A DNA stretch of 64,000 nucleotides from Okeania sp. SIO2B3 (GTDB lineage: Bacteria; Cyanobacteriota; Cyanobacteriia; Cyanobacteriales; Microcoleaceae): positions 1 to 64,000 of the forward strand of contig NZ_JAAHGH010000012.1 in assembly GCF_010672525.1 (NCBI RefSeq). Direction: 5' to 3'. Each line of letters starts with the position of its first letter. Within the stretch, counting starts at the first letter, position 1. Below, in pieces: positions 34,631-44,665 of the stretch. The notes below the pieces were generated by a model, which worked only from the letters and a program-made list of their open reading frames with translations, did not search any database and was not told the DNA's origin. The translations under genes and the position numbers were made by a program.

Positions 34631-36703
34631 ATGAATTTAATTGGCCAAGAATTTCCACAAATAGCAGCGATCGCCACAACTCCTGCAGCAACAAAATTAT
34701 TACAACCTATTTGCCAAACATTGGGGGCAACTCTATGGATGCCAGAGTCTTGTCAACAGGCAATAAATTCTACTGTTAACGCCGAAATTTACACCGACTC
34801 TCTGAAAAATCATCTAGCAAATATTTGGCAAAACTATAGTGCTATAGTTTTTTGTCTCGCCAGTGGTGCAGTTGTACGTTTAATCTCTCCACTTTTACAA
34901 GATAAATATCATGATCCAGCAGTAGTTGTTGTGGATGAAGCAGGTAAATTTGTCATTAGTTTATGTAGTGGACATCAAGGTGGTGCCGATAAAATGACTA
35001 ATGTACTTGCTCGCCTCCTGAACGCCACCCCAATTATTACAGGGGCATCCCATAATTTAGGATTACCTGGTATTGATATTTTGGGTAAACCTTTTGGTTG
35101 GCGACGAGGGAAGGGAGATTGGAATAGAGTCAGTGGAATAGTTGCTAGAGGAGAAGCTGTACAAGTAATTCAGGAAGTGGGTTCGAGGTTGTGGCAAGAG
35201 CATCTACCCCAGAATCATCCATTTGATTTTGGATTTCCAGAAATAGGCGATCGCTCATCCCCTACTCCCAAGGCCAGAATTTGGATTAGTTTTACTCAGC
35301 GTCAGTTTGCTCCAGATTCAGATTTACCGAAAGTGCAATGGCATCCACGAGTTTTGTGGATAGGGGTTGGTTGTGAAAGAGGTACTTCTAAAAAATTAAT
35401 TGCAACTGGTATTCAGCAAGTATTTCAAGCTAATCATTTAGCTGAGGGAGCGATCGCTGGAATTGTTACTATTGATATTAAAGCTGATGAAATAGGGTTA
35501 GTAGAATTTTGTCAGGAACAAAATTTACCTTTGCTGACTTTTCCTGCTGAGTTATTAAGCTGTGTTGAAGTACCTACTCCTTCTAATGTTGTTGCTCAAG
35601 AAGTAGGAACTCCTAGTGTGGCTGAAGCTGCTGCAATTTTAGGGGCAAAAGAAGGAAGAAGGAAGAAGGAAGAAGGAAGAAGGAAGAAGGAAGAAGGAAG
35701 AAGGAAGAAGTGGATAGAGACTCAAGCTCCAACCAATTATAAATACTGTGTAGAAGGCGGGATATTAAACCCAAAAGAAGAAGATAATTTTAATTCTGAA
35801 TTAAAAGAGAATACCGATAATTTATCCTCAAATTTTCAGGGAATTAATGAAGGTAATTTATTAGTCCGCAAACAAATATTCCGTTTAGAAGGAGAACCAG
35901 GAGCAGCAACTATTGCTGTTGCTTTAGCGCAAAAAGAATATACAGGAAGAACTGGAAAATTATTGTTAATTGGCACTGGTCCAGGAAAATTAGAACAGAT
36001 GACACCCGCTGCTCAAACTGCTATTAGTTATGCTGATGTTGTCATTGGTTATTCTCTTTATATTGACTTAATTCAACCCTTATTAAATCCTGGGCAAATA
36101 GTAGAAAAACTACCTATTACTCAAGAAAAGGAACGAGCAGAAAGAGCAATTGAATTGGCAAATTTTGGCTTAAATGTTGCAGTAGTTTCTTCTGGAGATT
36201 GTGGAATTTATGGCATGGCAGGATTAGTTTTAGAACAACTTCGAGCCACAGGTTGGGATGGCAAAATTCCCATGGTAGAAGTATTTCCTGGAGTTAGTGC
36301 TTTACAATCTGCTGCTGCTAGAGTTGGTGCGCCTTTGATGCACGATTTTTGTGCTATTAGTTTGAGCGATTTATTAACACCTTGGGAGGTAATAGAAAAA
36401 CGTTTAAATGCTGTAGCAATGGCAGATTTTGTCGTGGCACTTTATAATCCTAAATCCCAGAAAAGAACAGAACAATTAGTTAAAGCTGTGAATATCTTTT
36501 TAGAATATCGTAAACCAGAAACTCCAGTAGCAATTGTCAGGTCTGTTTATAGAGAAAATGAGGAAATTACCTTGACAAGTTTGGATAAATTATTGGAATT
36601 TTCTATTGATATGTTGACAGTAATTTTGATTGGTAATGAATCTACAGGTATTTATAATAATTGGATGATTACACCGAGGGGTTATTCAACAATTAATAAT
36701 TAA
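34631..36703 (+). CDS. cobJ: CbiG-CobJ fusion: cobalt-precorrin-5A hydrolase / precorrin-3B C17-methyltransferase
   Basis: The 690-residue protein fuses two steps of corrin ring synthesis. Residues 1-338 are CbiG-like (SAIVFCLASGAVVRLISPLL, VISLCSGHQGGADKMTNVLA, LWIGVGCERGTSKKLIATGI), which opens the lactone ring. Residues about 430-690 are the SAM-dependent C17-methyltransferase (KLLLIGTGPGKLEQMTPAAQ, VSSGDCGIYGMAGLVLEQLR, VEVFPGVSALQSAAARVGAP, DFVVALYNPKSQKRTEQLVK). The fusion is known in cyanobacteria. The linker carries an in-frame EGRRKK/EEGRRKK repeat at about residues 340-362, coded by a purine tandem repeat of an intergenic type. The last codons (STINN) and stop fall in a 7-bp tandem repeat. 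Confidence 0.95.
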   Translation: MNLIGQEFPQIAAIATTPAATKLLQPICQTLGATLWMPESCQQAINSTVNAEIYTDSLKNHLANIWQNYSAIVFCLASGAVVRLISPLLQDKYHDPAVVVVDEAGKFVISLCSGHQGGADKMTNVLARLLNATPIITGASHNLGLPGIDILGKPFGWRRGKGDWNRVSGIVARGEAVQVIQEVGSRLWQEHLPQNHPFDFGFPEIGDRSSPTPKARIWISFTQRQFAPDSDLPKVQWHPRVLWIGVGCERGTSKKLIATGIQQVFQANHLAEGAIAGIVTIDIKADEIGLVEFCQEQNLPLLTFPAELLSCVEVPTPSNVVAQEVGTPSVAEAAAILGAKEGRRKKEEGRRKKEEGRRKKWIETQAPTNYKYCVEGGILNPKEEDNFNSELKENTDNLSSNFQGINEGNLLVRKQIFRLEGEPGAATIAVALAQKEYTGRTGKLLLIGTGPGKLEQMTPAAQTAISYADVVIGYSLYIDLIQPLLNPGQIVEKLPITQEKERAERAIELANFGLNVAVVSSGDCGIYGMAGLVLEQLRATGWDGKIPMVEVFPGVSALQSAAARVGAPLMHDFCAISLSDLLTPWEVIEKRLNAVAMADFVVALYNPKSQKRTEQLVKAVNIFLEYRKPETPVAIVRSVYRENEEITLTSLDKLLEFSIDMLTVILIGNESTGIYNNWMITPRGYSTINN
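35648..35710 (+). repeat. In-frame AAGGAAGAAGG tandem repeat inside cobJ
   Basis: Three units of a 21-bp gaaggaagaaggaagaaggaa-type sequence encode the basic/acidic EGRRKKE repeats of the CbiG-CobJ linker. The complementary TTCCTTCTTCC repeat is intergenic at 28944-28986 and 57844-57871. Confidence 0.8.
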
Positions 36704-38548: not shown

Positions 38549-38700
38549 TTTAATTAGGGTTTGCGCTCAAAAGTCTTTCAGTAGGGGTAGGAGACAACCC
38601 ACCCCTCGCCCCTCCCCCTTCCAGGAGGGGAAGACAGGAGACAGGAGAAATAGCTCGGGAGCCAGGAGGTAGGAGTAACAATGGCTTTGTTCCATGAAAG
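38549..38700. mobile_element. Family B element, single-ended copy
   Basis: Begins taattagggtttgcgctcaa (about 38552), then gtaggggtaggagacaaccc, the cccctcgcccctccccc block and gacaggagacagg tandem. No clear opposite end; the direct-repeat array starts soon after. Confidence 0.6.
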
Positions 38701-38900
38701 TAGTGTTCTTAACATCCATTCCGCAGCTATATCACTGTGTTTGGCGATGGCTTGATGTTGTATCGATACTATTGTCCAATAGTTATTGCTGTGCACTGCA
38801 AAGCGTTGGCGGAGCAAGTGCGGCAGCTATATCGCTGTGTTTGGCGATGGCTTGATGTTGTATCGATACTATTGTCCAATAGTTATTGCTGTGCTGATTA

Positions 38901-39001
38901 CAGCGCTTTTCAAATTGATGAACCACATCTTCATACATCAAACCTTGTAGGGACGTTCCATGGAACGTCCCTACTGGGGTTTATCCAAATGAAAACCGCT
39001 G
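38901..39001. mobile_element. 101-bp MITE inserted at TA within the repeat array
   Basis: Ends CAGCGCTTTTCA (38901-38912) and TGAAAACCGCTG (38990-39001) are inverted repeats with one mismatch. TA lies on both sides (38899-38900 and 39002-39003). Uninterrupted copies of the array at about 39595-39607 read gctgat-TA-aacctc, giving the empty site. The centre is a perfect 28-bp palindrome at 38947-38974 (core gttccatggaac). TA duplication is typical of IS630/Tc1-mariner transposition. Confidence 0.85.
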
Positions 39002-40078
39002 TAAACCTCAAAGCTTTTACAGGTAAAATTTTCAGCCTTTTTCACATCAAACATTGATATTGTATCGATACTATTGTCCAATAGTTATTGCTGTGCACTG
39101 CAAAGCGTTGGCGGAGCAAGTGTGGCAGCTATATCGCTGTGTTTGGCGATGGCTTGATATTGTATCGATACTATTGTCCAATAGTTATTGCTGTGCACTG
39201 CAAAGCGTTGGCGGAGCAAGTGTGGCAGCTATATCGCTGTGTTTGGCGATGGCTTGATGTTGTATCGATACTATTGTCCAATAGTTATTGCTGTGCACTG
39301 CAAAGCGTTGGCGGAGCAAGTGCGGCAGCTATATCGCTGTGTTTGGCGATGGCTTGATGTTGTATCGATACTATTGTCCAATAGTTATTGCTGTGCACTG
39401 CAAAGCGTTGGCGGAGCAAGTGCGGCAGCTATATCGCTGTGTTTGGCGATGGCTTGATGTTGTATCGATACTATTGTCCAATAGTTATTGCTGTGCACTG
39501 CAAAGCATTGGCGGAGCAAGTGCGGCAGCTATATCACTGTATTTGGCGATGGCTTGATGTTGTATCGATACTATTGTCCAATAGTTATTGCTGTGCTGAT
39601 TAAACCTCAAAGCTTTTACAGGTAAAAGTTTCAGTTTTTTTTACCTCAAACATTGATGTTGTATTGAGCTATTGTCCAATAGTTATTAGTCTGCACTACA
39701 AAGCGATCGCTGTGTTTGGCAATTATTGATGTTGTATTGAGCTATTGTCCAATAGTTATTAGTCTGCACTGCCAAGCGATCGCTGTGTTTGGCAATTATT
39801 GATGTTGTATTGAGCTATTGTCCAATAGTTATTAGTCTGCACTGCCAAGCGATCGCTGTGTTTGGCAATTATTGATGTTGTATCGATCTATTGGACAATA
39901 GTTATTGCTGTGCTGATTAAACTTCAAAGCTTTTATAGGTAGAAGTTTCAGCTTTTTTCACCTCAAACTATTGATGTTGTATTTATCTATTGTCCAATAG
40001 TTATTGCTCTGCACTGCAAAGCGATCGCTGTGTTTGGCGATGGCTTGATGTTGTATTGATCTATTGCCCAATAGTTAT

Positions 40079-40223
40079 ATCATGTCCGGATAATTAGTTA
40101 TAAAAAAACTTTCTCTTTCAACTCCTCTTTCTTCCCTCCTGAGTTCCCCTCCTGGGAGGGGGAGGGGCGAGGGGTGGGTTGTCTCCTACCCCAACAAAAA
40201 GACTTTCCATACGCAAACCCTAG
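40079..40223. mobile_element. Chimeric family A/B element inserted in the array
   Basis: One end is the family A terminus (atcatgtccggataattag), the other the family B terminus (acgcaaaccctag). TTAT flanks both sides (40075-40078 and 40224-40227), while intact array units read caatagTTATtgctg, consistent with a 4-bp target duplication. Inside are the tttccc/cccctcctgggaggggga block and gggtgggttgtctcctaccc. Confidence 0.7.
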
Positions 40224-40347
40224 TTATTCTCTGCTGATTAAACCTAAAAGCTTTTACAGGTAAAAGTTTCAGCCTTTTTCACCTCAAACATTGATGTTGT
40301 ATTGATCTATTGGACAATAGTTACAGCAGTTTCGGCGCATTATGAAG

Positions 40348-40479
40348 TATAGCGCTGTGCGCAGGCAACAGCTCCGGAAAGCAACAGCTCATCTGGGGGA
40401 ATAAATTGCTTATCATACAAGACTTTTAGCTATTTTGCCTTTCCTGTAATTTGTAAATATACCAGCGCTCATTGCTATA
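40348..40479. mobile_element. Family D element, copy 1
   Basis: Left end TATAGCGCTGTGCGCAGG, right end CCAGCGCTCATTGCTATA, an imperfect inverted repeat of 18 bp beginning and ending in TA. Internal tail tttgtaaatataccagcgct. Other copies at 40578-40700, 52921-53057 and 61051-61174, and a short one at 61371-61469. Confidence 0.75.
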
Positions 40480-40577
40480 GATATGCACAAGCAAGTGCGG
40501 CAGCTATATAGTTTCATGCAACAAAGCCAGTAAGAATTGTAAGAATGATTTTTCTGCCATAGTCTTGCCTAAAATAC

Positions 40578-40837: not shown

Positions 40838-41015
40838 AGGACTTACGCAGACACTCTACTTATTAGGGCGAATGCCATTCGCTTATTAGGGCGAATGCCA
40901 TTCGCCCCTACAGATGGTGGTTTCACGCCCCTACAGATGGTGGTTTCACGCCCCTACAGATGGTGGTTTCACACCCCTACAGATGGTGGTTTCACAGTCA
41001 ATTTGCGTAAGTCCT
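40838..41015. mobile_element. Family C element expanded by internal 23-bp repeats
   Basis: Ends AGGACTTACGCA (40838-40849) and TGCGTAAGTCCT (41004-41015). Inside, a 23-bp unit ttattagggcgaatgccatt... occurs twice (40860-40905) and another 23-bp unit cccctacagatggtggtttc... occurs four times (starts 40905, 40928, 40951, 40974). Family C copies elsewhere have single units, so this one has grown by tandem duplication. Confidence 0.8.
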
Positions 41016-41023
41016 GGTAACTA

Positions 41024-42582
<1,559 letters not shown>

Positions 42583-42970
42583 AATTTTCTAATATAGCAT
42601 TTTTTTGGGATCGATGGAAAGAAAGTCAAAAGTCAAAAGTCAAAAGTTAAAAGTCAAAAAAAAAAAGATATTAATTCTAAGTTATTGTTGATCATTCCGG
42701 AAAGTTGTATATTAAAATTTTTGTTTATTGATAACGAATTATTAAATTTGACAATTCTAGAGAATTTTTGGTTTATTGTTGATCACAGTGCATCTATGTG
42801 ACCGTAATTTGAAATAGCTGGAAGACCCAGAAATGCGGTCGGGCAAGACCCTTCAATATCTATGGAAGTCTAGCTGCGGAGTATTCGTAGCAGGAAATCA
42901 ACATTAATTTTTCATACTGTGATGTTCTTAACGTAGATCACAAAAATAACCAAGGAGACTAATTTCGATT
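42583..42970. other. Intergenic between thiC leader and VCBS gene
   Basis: A 9-bp GTCAAAAGT-type tandem repeat at 42624-42660, an A+T-rich stretch and a family F-like motif (tgcggagtattcgtagcagg) at about 42875-42895. Promoters for thiC (minus) and the downstream gene (plus) must lie here; I could not place them with confidence. Confidence 0.4.
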
Positions 42971-44665
42971 ATGACATTTTCAAGATGGCTACAGAAAACA
43001 AATGTGACTGAAACTACGATGGCGAATGAATTTAATTCTTTACCACAACTGAAACAAACTTTGGGTAAATGTTTTCGGGTTGTGCTGGCAGTGGTAATGG
43101 CAGTTGTGATGTTTGCCATGCCGATAACAACAGTCCATGCTGCTCCGACTATTGAGTTCATTGACTCTGGGCAAGCTTTGGGGAATTTCAATAGCAGGGA
43201 TGTAAGTTTAGCAGATGTGGATGAAGATGGCGATATCGATGCTTTCGTTGCTAATGGCGCTCAGTCCAACAAAGTTTGGTTAAATGATGGTAGCGGTAAT
43301 TTCACTGACTCTGGCCAAGTTTTGGGGAATTTCCTTAGCAATGATGTGAGTTTAGCAGATTTGGATGGAGATGGTGACTTTGATGCTTTTGTTGCTAACG
43401 GTAGTATTTCCAGCAAAGTTTGGTTAAATGATGGTAGCGGCAATTTCACTGACTCTGGGCAAAATTTGGATCGTTCCAATAGCATAAGTGTGAGTGTAGC
43501 AGATGTGGATGGAGATGGTGACATTGATGCTTTTAGTACTATGTATTATAATAACAAAGTTTGGTTAAACGATGGTAGTGGCAATTTCACTGATTCTGGC
43601 CAAGCTTTGGGGGACTCCAAGAGCTTAGGTGTGAGTTTAGGAGATGTGGATGGAGATGGTGACTTTGATGCTTTTGTTACTAATTACGAAGAGCCTAACA
43701 AGGTTTGGTTAAATGCTGGTAGTGGCAATTTCACTGACTCTGGGCAAAATTTGGGGAATTCCAAGAGCAGAGATGTAAGTTTAGCAGATGTGGATGGAGA
43801 TGGCGCTCTTGATGCTTTTGTTGCTAATGTGGAGAATCAGCCTAACAAAGTTTGGTTAAATGATGGTAGTGGCAATTTCACTGACTCACAGCAAGCTTTG
43901 GGGAATTCCAAGAGCGAGGATGTGAGTGTAGCAGATGTGGATGGAGATGGCGATATTGATGCTTTCGTTGCTAATTACGAAGAGCCTAACAAAGTTTGGT
44001 TAAATGATGGTAGCGGCAATTTCACTGACTCACAGCAAGCTTTGGGGAATTCCAATAGCTTAGATGTGAGTTTAGGAGATGTAGATGGAGATGGTGACTT
44101 TGATGCTTTTGTTGCTAATCTTGATCAGCCTAACAAGGTTTGGTTAAACAACCTAGATGAGTACAACCTTTGCGACAACGTAGCACCAGATAACTTAGTA
44201 GTCAATGGCAGCTTTGAAACACCAGAAATTCCAACAGTCCCTGGTGTTAGTTTTGAAAGAGCGATCGAAGGTTGGGAGCTAGTTACCGGGCCATTTATCG
44301 AAATTGATAACAGATTAGTCACCAGTCCCTACGATGGGTTACAACTTGTGGATCTAGATAGTTTAAATGCAACGACTAAAATTTCTCAGACAATTTCTAC
44401 CCAACCAGGAGAAACCTACAAGCTAACTTTTGCATTTAAAGGTAATGATGATTCCACTATAGTGGAAGATAACACAATGGATGTATATTGGGGTTCGGAA
44501 TTAGTTGAAGCATTTGATCAAGTTGACAGTGATACATGGGAGGTGAAAACCTACAACCTGGAAGCAACAAGCACTGAAACTGTTCTCAGCTTTGATAACC
44601 TCAATGACATAACTGATGGTGCTGGTACTCGTCTGGATGCAGTAAGCGTTAACTTGTGTCAGTAG
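42971..44665 (+). CDS. Secreted VCBS/FG-GAP repeat protein with C-terminal carbohydrate-binding-like domain
   Basis: The 564-residue product has a long N-region and hydrophobic signal (VVLAVVMAVVMFAMPITTVH, cleaved near AAP); an alternative ATG at 43019 gives 548 residues. Seven or eight tandem repeats of about 50 residues follow, each with SLADVDGDGDIDAFVAN and NKVWLNDGSGNFTDSGQ, typical of FG-GAP/VCBS beta-propeller blades with DxDxDxD calcium loops. Residues about 410-564 (NLVVNGSFETPEIP ... LDAVSVNLCQ) resemble the DUF642/carbohydrate-binding jelly-roll type. Likely extracellular and Ca-binding. A fragment of a related 3' end lies downstream. Confidence 0.88.
   Translation: MTFSRWLQKTNVTETTMANEFNSLPQLKQTLGKCFRVVLAVVMAVVMFAMPITTVHAAPTIEFIDSGQALGNFNSRDVSLADVDEDGDIDAFVANGAQSNKVWLNDGSGNFTDSGQVLGNFLSNDVSLADLDGDGDFDAFVANGSISSKVWLNDGSGNFTDSGQNLDRSNSISVSVADVDGDGDIDAFSTMYYNNKVWLNDGSGNFTDSGQALGDSKSLGVSLGDVDGDGDFDAFVTNYEEPNKVWLNAGSGNFTDSGQNLGNSKSRDVSLADVDGDGALDAFVANVENQPNKVWLNDGSGNFTDSQQALGNSKSEDVSVADVDGDGDIDAFVANYEEPNKVWLNDGSGNFTDSQQALGNSNSLDVSLGDVDGDGDFDAFVANLDQPNKVWLNNLDEYNLCDNVAPDNLVVNGSFETPEIPTVPGVSFERAIEGWELVTGPFIEIDNRLVTSPYDGLQLVDLDSLNATTKISQTISTQPGETYKLTFAFKGNDDSTIVEDNTMDVYWGSELVEAFDQVDSDTWEVKTYNLEATSTETVLSFDNLNDITDGAGTRLDAVSVNLCQ

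Follow-up and report, generated by a model that had tools for sequence, protein, structure and literature searches.

A tandem palindrome array in Okeania is the interior of a small transposable element and carries predicted operators of an HTH protein family

A tandem array of palindromes in the window (the whole stretch of 64,000 nucleotides from Okeania sp. SIO2B3 that was analysed) is the interior of a small non-autonomous transposable element with the ends GGCTTTGTTGCATGAAA. The palindrome, a dyad site TAACTATTGTCCAATAGTTA, is common to transposon arrays, to the centre of a second MITE and to the starts of HTH genes, and the HTH protein of the adjacent gene is the natural candidate binder. 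From these sequence comparisons, we consider it probable that a non-autonomous IS5-like element displays the operators of a self-regulating HTH family.

The element in the window and its relatives

The pattern CTATTGnnCAATAG matches the window 15 times, always inside 38769-40320, with the consensus CTATTG(TC/GA/CC)CAATAG and a centre of TC in 12 copies, GA in two and CC in one. Successive palindromes are spaced by 100 bp six times, by 98 and 99 bp once each, by 73 bp three times and by 74 bp once, and two further spacings, of 202 and 246 bp, span two inserted stretches. A sequence-only reading of this DNA had reported the 15 occurrences and two unit spacings of about 100 and 73-74 bp, and the pattern matches, counted spacings and TRF arrays bear out both. 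The linker AACCTCAAAGCTTTTACAGG that it noticed at block borders is real; it belongs to the element's middle module, which is a third type of unit. The extent proposed there, 38724..40330, placed the array rightly and was slightly too narrow for the element (Table 1). By TRF, the units within the element are almost identical to one another.

Inverted repeats bound the array and delimit an element of 1846 bp at 38683-40528 that contains all 15 palindromes. As expected of a MITE, its terminal inverted repeats (17 bp, one mismatch) are flanked by a 9-bp target-site duplication, with eight of nine bases equal between AGTAACAAT and AGTAAGAAT in the window copy, and it holds no transposase gene, the ORFs found inside it at a floor of 80 aa being repeat-made frames of 89-106 aa. 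All 77 query bases of the right-end module are matched by 24 other copies in the same genome.

Table 1. Parts of the element in the window, with window coordinates
Feature	Position	Strand	Remarks
Left target-site duplication AGTAACAAT	38674..38682	.	8/9 bases equal to right flank
Left terminal inverted repeat GGCTTTGTTCCATGAAA	38683..38699	+	1 mismatch to GGCTTTGTTGCATGAAA, the end common to other elements
Left-end module, reaching first palindrome	38683..38768	+	79-118 bp in 7/9 other elements; of the other two, one composite, one read in reverse
Two 14-bp palindromes, 38769 and 38869, at 100-bp spacing	38769..38882	+	
100-bp unit block; palindromes 39071, 39171, 39271, 39371, 39471, 39571	39071..39584	+	TRF 100-bp array 39054-39596 (98% matches)
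Middle module with aaacctcaaagcttttacagg (the earlier linker)	39585..39668	+	Found again in other elements
73-bp unit block; palindromes 39669, 39742, 39815, 39888 (39888: centre GA)	39669..39901	+	TRF 73-bp array 39652-39906 (96% matches)
Palindromes 39987 and 40061, 74 bp apart (40061: centre CC)	39987..40074	+	
Final palindrome, bordering right-end module	40307..40320	+	Same border in other elements
Right-end module TTACAGCAGTTTCGGCGCATTATGAAGTA... with inserted stretch; usually ~77 bp	40321..40528	+	Window copy matched as two segments, 40321-40349 and 40490-40528
Right terminal inverted repeat, GGCTTTGTTGCATGAAA on the - strand	40512..40528	-	
Right target-site duplication AGTAAGAAT	40529..40537	.	

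The modular plan is common to nine other elements that we compared and to further ones, with exceptions: a left-end module, a palindrome, palindrome-bounded units and, closing the element, one more palindrome followed by the right-end module TTACAGCAGTTTCCGCGCATT.... The units are of two kinds, a left-type unit, which is expanded in the window element, and the middle module AAACCTCAAAGCTTTTACAGG.... Among the exceptions, L014 is composite and some elements have another left end. The examined DNA, with loci chosen partly by palindrome or ends, contains 31 distinct inverted-repeat pairs, 28 of which enclose at least one palindrome and 21 of which show flank duplication in at least eight of nine bases (for shuffled flanks the mean is 2.0 and the maximum 8). 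The smallest palindrome-bearing pair spans 267 bp and two palindromes. The sequence-only reading had counted scattered single copies at homologous loci among the findings that would speak against it; copies of the element family mostly carry at least two palindromes instead.

Searched for alone with at most one mismatch, the element ends gave 30+33 matches in the genome of the window and none in the reversed control. A broken relative of 1076 bp (L096) has similar ends and a 159-aa frame matching DDE_Tnp_1, and lacks a target duplication; the frame points to an IS5-type helper, IS5 being the family name that we assume for it. Around 13 elements, judged by ORFs of at least 120 aa, neighbouring genes are tandem in six cases, convergent in four, divergent in one and of unknown orientation in two; an argument from these orientations for a promoter role was dropped, 13 elements being too few.

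A second palindrome-bearing family is a MITE of about 89 bp with the ends AGGACTTACGCA, and no sequence common to it and the first family was seen beyond the palindrome. We read 30 copies from the genome of the window, located by a single arm and taken as the first 30 among 129 such matches, all 30 without mismatch in the arm; both half-sites at the centre were intact in 24, and the other six had one mismatch there. Four of these six centres are CTATTGTCCAACAG, a form also common at HTH genes. The outermost palindromes lie about 80 bp from the ends in the large family and about 37 bp from them in the MITE, and the similarity of this distance speaks slightly for a function in the life of the element itself. 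In the window, 178 bp at 40838-41015 are enclosed by AGGACTTACGCA and TGCGTAAGTCCT and hold 23-bp repeats without any HTH sites.

Copies of the palindrome and their match to HTH gene starts

When at most one mismatch is allowed, the genome of the window (10.0 Mb) holds 164+175 palindromes as against 1+2 matches to the reversed pattern, which excludes chance. Exact copies of CTATTGKMCAATAG number 270 there (reversed control 0) and 65-383 in each of the other four genomes of the genus, which the genome of the window shares with O. hirsuta (G002). Among the other genomes, G016 and G021 are Okeania MAGs and G011 is a Microcoleaceae MAG. Of the 98 genomes searched, 23 have a palindrome match, and at least 16 exact copies were found only in the window's own genus (5/5 genomes), in g7 (4/7, up to 138) and in g8 (30). 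Matches to the HTH family number 22 in the genome of the window and up to 53 in G016; a profile search found the family in 23 of the 98 genomes, its counts being lower bounds with at most 39 candidates scored per genome. All ten genomes with at least 16 exact copies have at least seven HTH matches, and G073 and G093 have five HTH matches each and no palindromes. The 14-mer had no match in the literature text searched.

We classified 113 exact copies from the window and 30 loci of its genome, drawn from the first-listed places rather than from the whole genome and mostly picked by palindrome or ends: 85 lie in the element family, 25 in the ~89-bp MITE and three elsewhere. Beside 24 right ends, located without using the palindrome, identity is 91% in the half-sites, 71-75% in the centre and 62% in the 30 bases to the left; two of the 24 lack the palindrome. 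Retention of the half-sites while centre and left flank drift fits binding by a dimer. The bases to the right of the palindrome are as conserved as the half-sites, at 95% identity, which is partly due to selection of the ends. A single conserved operator or dif-like site was considered from genus g3, in which eight genomes have one or two copies, and was rejected; seven of the nine g3 sites read sit in one conserved stretch, with flanks unlike those of the elements.

The N-terminus of the HTH proteins looks like a small winged HTH with a weak Pfam assignment: at E<=0.1, HTH_17 matches 25 of the 33 members, with 6.6e-5 as the best value and 0.098, below the cut-off, for the first member, and an excisionase-like PHROG matches 21 of 33. 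The C-terminus matches phrog_8676, an uncharacterised phage family, in 33 of 33 members. Phage relatives, in 21 records, share only part of the protein, and among the 20 phage matches listed 18 cover residues from 63-71 on and two the N-terminal part. In the clade I HTH protein of Trichodesmium erythraeum (L224:3001-3477), residues 68-134 match phrog_8676 and phage proteins. A search of solved structures with the HTH protein gave no match, and no recurring partner gene stands beside the HTH genes at eight loci except in the syntenic pair L222 and L223.

Trichodesmium erythraeum GBRTRLIN201 (G010; G025 is also Trichodesmium) has four exact palindromes genome-wide, one of them 14 bp before the ATG of a gene for a 159-aa HTH protein; two others that we read are not at HTH genes. 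Across 92 upstream stretches from 88 loci, a CTATTGnnCAAYAG-like site precedes 40 of 41 clade I HTH genes, a CTATTGnnCAATGG-like site 11 of 11 clade II genes and a CTATAGnGCTAnAG-like site 25 of 26 clade III genes; these counts leave out HTH matches lacking the N-terminus or with less than 60 bp upstream, L336 (short upstream) and L301 from alignment A2. At 18 of 19 clade IVb genes the site is 18 bp long, AACTnnnACGTTATAGTT or a related form, and it abuts the ATG in 15 of them and stands three bases away in three. The looser TTCCGRAAYAGTT was found at 16 of 25 clade IVa genes, and none of the tested site classes at the six of clade V (Moorena rows).

In most upstream stretches, 28 or 29 bases separate the start of the site from the first aligned residue, but its place relative to the start codon differs between clades. 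In clade I the aligned residue is the start methionine and the site ends about 14 bp short of the ATG. The ATG of clade III is probably nine bases upstream of that residue, leaving about 5 bp between site and ATG, and the clade II gene L204 has its first in-frame start within the site. A palindrome at a fixed place by the gene start, with a sequence that varies by clade, as that of an operator would, is found in clades I, II, III and IVb. Site and clade agree in 76 of 76 genes of clades I-III that have a site (maximum of 20,000 shuffles 46), although close paralogs share upstream DNA by descent and the 76 matches are not independent events. On a tree of 118 proteins, for which the bootstrap had not settled, 12 changes suffice to account for the site classes (minimum 5; shuffles average 73.4, with 0/200 as low). 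As judged from these alignments, site and protein change together between clades.

The clade I HTH genes in the genome of the window were seen only as contig-end fragments, L207 and L208 with the site and N-terminal half and L209 with the C-terminal half. At L201 (776-1500) and L242, tandem partial HTH 5' ends, each with a palindrome, stand ahead of a full-length copy. TATAAA-like hexamers with at most one mismatch directly precede the site in 15 of 20 clade III, 10 of 15 clade IVb and 0 of 36 clade I cases, in AT-rich DNA where the A-tract may belong to the site, and the idea of promoter overlap at HTH genes was set aside.

Sites of other clades recur in repeats as well. Clade III sites form regular arrays and small elements in G021 and in Hydrocoleum CS-953 (G034); the genome of the window has seven, three at HTH genes, and none was seen in arrays there. 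The ~89-bp MITE carries a clade I site at its centre in the genome of the window and a clade III site in G021 (L306, L307), and of 43 distinct short stretches with AGGACTTACGCA-type ends, 26 have a clade I site, one a clade III site and 16 neither. The clade IVb site with at most two mismatches, perfect palindromes being counted on both strands, occurs 181 times in the genome of the window (reversed pattern 11) and 149-375 times in seven relatives (control 5-12).

In 20 loci picked because clade IVb sites cluster there, many of the sites stand in arrays with periods of about 61 to 170 bp and unlike spacers. The pattern used to choose these loci was drawn from the gene site of L215 and a similar repeat in L313, so that their likeness to clade IVb sites is partly due to selection. 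Three of nine exact gene variants (AACTAAGACG..., AACTCAAACG... and AACTCCAACG...) were found in arrays, and the other six were not found in the 22 array loci examined. Inverted-repeat ends were not found in three of four clade IVb array loci, and none bracketed the array in the fourth. L364 and L370, from two genomes of the genus, share one clade IVb-site array and match in its left flank, with nine and eight sites found, and the locus is probably length-variable. Clade II sites number eight in eight genomes, all eight at HTH genes. At L017 (2625-2850), tandem units of about 76 bp carry the clade I palindrome without either transposon end.

Proposed mechanism and competing explanations

These data allow us to propose that each tandem unit carries one palindrome as a predicted operator of the clade I HTH protein. 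Dimers of the HTH protein would bind at the start of the gene that encodes them, on the palindrome, and control that gene; we infer both DNA binding and autoregulation. The mobile and tandem repeats, in high copy, would compete for the protein as a sponge, and bound protein may silence the element or help to bring its ends together. Among effects on the regulator or on the element, we regard titration as the most likely, with modest confidence. Of the two ideas offered by the sequence-only reading, protein binding at the palindromes gains strong indirect support from their fixed place at HTH gene starts and their clade versions, and a structured RNA found no support, there being no Rfam match and no excess of folding.

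Plain repeat expansion inside a MITE would make the palindrome inert, spread by transposition and unequal crossing-over, with its presence at HTH genes an old co-option or an accident. The near-identity of the tandem units within the window element suits this explanation, as does the lack of clade I and III sites in 16 of the 43 stretches bounded by the ends of the second MITE, and a MITE-with-minisatellite layout is already known (PMC4596501). We nevertheless think it unlikely, given that the same 14 bp recurs in three contexts with no other shared sequence seen, that half-sites are retained although the left flank diverges, and that two other HTH clades are likewise paired with repeats of their own sites.

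It is still less likely that the palindrome works as RNA, forming a hairpin in the 5' leader of HTH mRNAs and, where arrays are transcribed, a repeated structured or small RNA similar to NsiR1. NsiR1 of Anabaena comes from a tandem array of near-identical repeats, and the array described here likewise consists of near-identical tandem repeats in a filamentous cyanobacterium; unlike NsiR1, the Okeania units are part of a transposable element. Points in favour are that the start codon follows the site by only a few bases in clades I and III, that the changes between clades are compensatory (CTATTG/CAATAG to CTATAG/CTATAG), and that the one copy of the ~89-bp MITE that was folded forms a single long hairpin (z -7.43). 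Against this, the two-base centre would leave an RNA stem of at most 5 bp, mostly A-U, clade IVb sites abut the ATG and a clade II start falls inside the site, and palindrome copies are found on both strands. One array unit of each type, on both strands, folded no better than shuffles (z -0.54, -1.30, -0.81, -1.61), and Rfam at gathering thresholds gave no match over the array; the idea of a small-RNA gene was abandoned on these results.

Plasmid centromere-binding proteins have a layout that combines an autoregulator with iteron arrays. This likeness and the presence of arrays at many chromosomal places could suggest a general nucleoid or chromosome-partition protein bound to centromere-like arrays, with the HTH genes as one target only, an explanation that we consider very improbable since the sites vary with HTH clade in step with the protein, as a single binder would not need.

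Operators displayed by the element remain the reading that we favour. As a tentative extension of it, which we hold possible and somewhat doubtful, Okeania, Trichodesmium and Hydrocoleum may contain co-diversifying repeat-binding regulators: dozens of paralogous HTH autoregulators, with several clade operators grown into genome-wide satellite sets of arrays and MITEs and the operator an exchangeable MITE module. If true, this would be a bacterial counterpart of zinc-finger/transposon or centromere-protein/satellite pairs, in which either the repeats determine how much of each regulator is free or the regulators police the repeats. Repeats in large filamentous cyanobacterial genomes are usually credited to transposons alone. 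The clade-specific sites tie these repeats to one uncharacterised regulator family and give a testable claim on what they bind. If it holds, bacterial regulators and repeats would be diversifying together, with a natural set of presumably orthogonal HTH-operator pairs, and there would be a reason for palindromes to stay intact while spacers decay.

Related systems and further observations in the window

BrickBuilt of Porphyromonas gingivalis is described as a MITE with an internal minisatellite (PMC4596501). It shares with the Okeania element small inverted-repeat ends, leader and tail modules, an internal tandem array, an intergenic position and multiple copies. Its repeat is of 23 nt and spacer-less, whereas the Okeania units measure 66-100 bp (100 and 73 bp in the window), and unlike BrickBuilt as there described, the Okeania element keeps a 14-bp palindrome that matches the site at resident HTH genes (PMC4596501). 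In BOX elements of Streptococcus pneumoniae, two end modules enclose middle modules that are repeated in tandem and vary in number; in layout, which was compared rather than sequences, they resemble the Okeania element in their two end modules, variable tandem middle and varying array length, and the accessible portion of the source states no link of a module to a paralogous regulator, unlike the case made here (PMC3049150).

Correia elements, as described in a review, are MITEs with a site for IHF, a host DNA-binding protein (PMC10969869). The Okeania element would similarly be a MITE carrying a host-protein site, binding being predicted here. IHF is one general protein (PMC10969869), whereas the Okeania sites match clade-specific ones at the genes of a family whose matches exceed 20 in each genome of the window's own genus. 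In listings and abstract openings, with most subscription papers outside that scope, we recognised no literature on this element or HTH family, and in listings alone none that connects modules of tandem repeats with the clade-specific operators of a family of HTH paralogs.

To its right, the element has as neighbour a 486-aa ORF at 41024-42484 (-), which we take to be ThiC-like. It is led by a TPP riboswitch at 42492-42587 (-) (Rfam RF00059, 69.7 bits). The 690-aa ORF at 34631-36703 contains about nine AAGAAGG heptamers at 35649-35710, read in frame as EEGRRKK repeats, and one heptamer more or less would shift the frame; the same ORF includes a clade III type site, CTATAGTGCTATAG, at 34834-34847, probably by chance. 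A 564-aa ORF at 42971-44665 (+), presumably FG-GAP-like, has about seven internal repeats of 144 bp.
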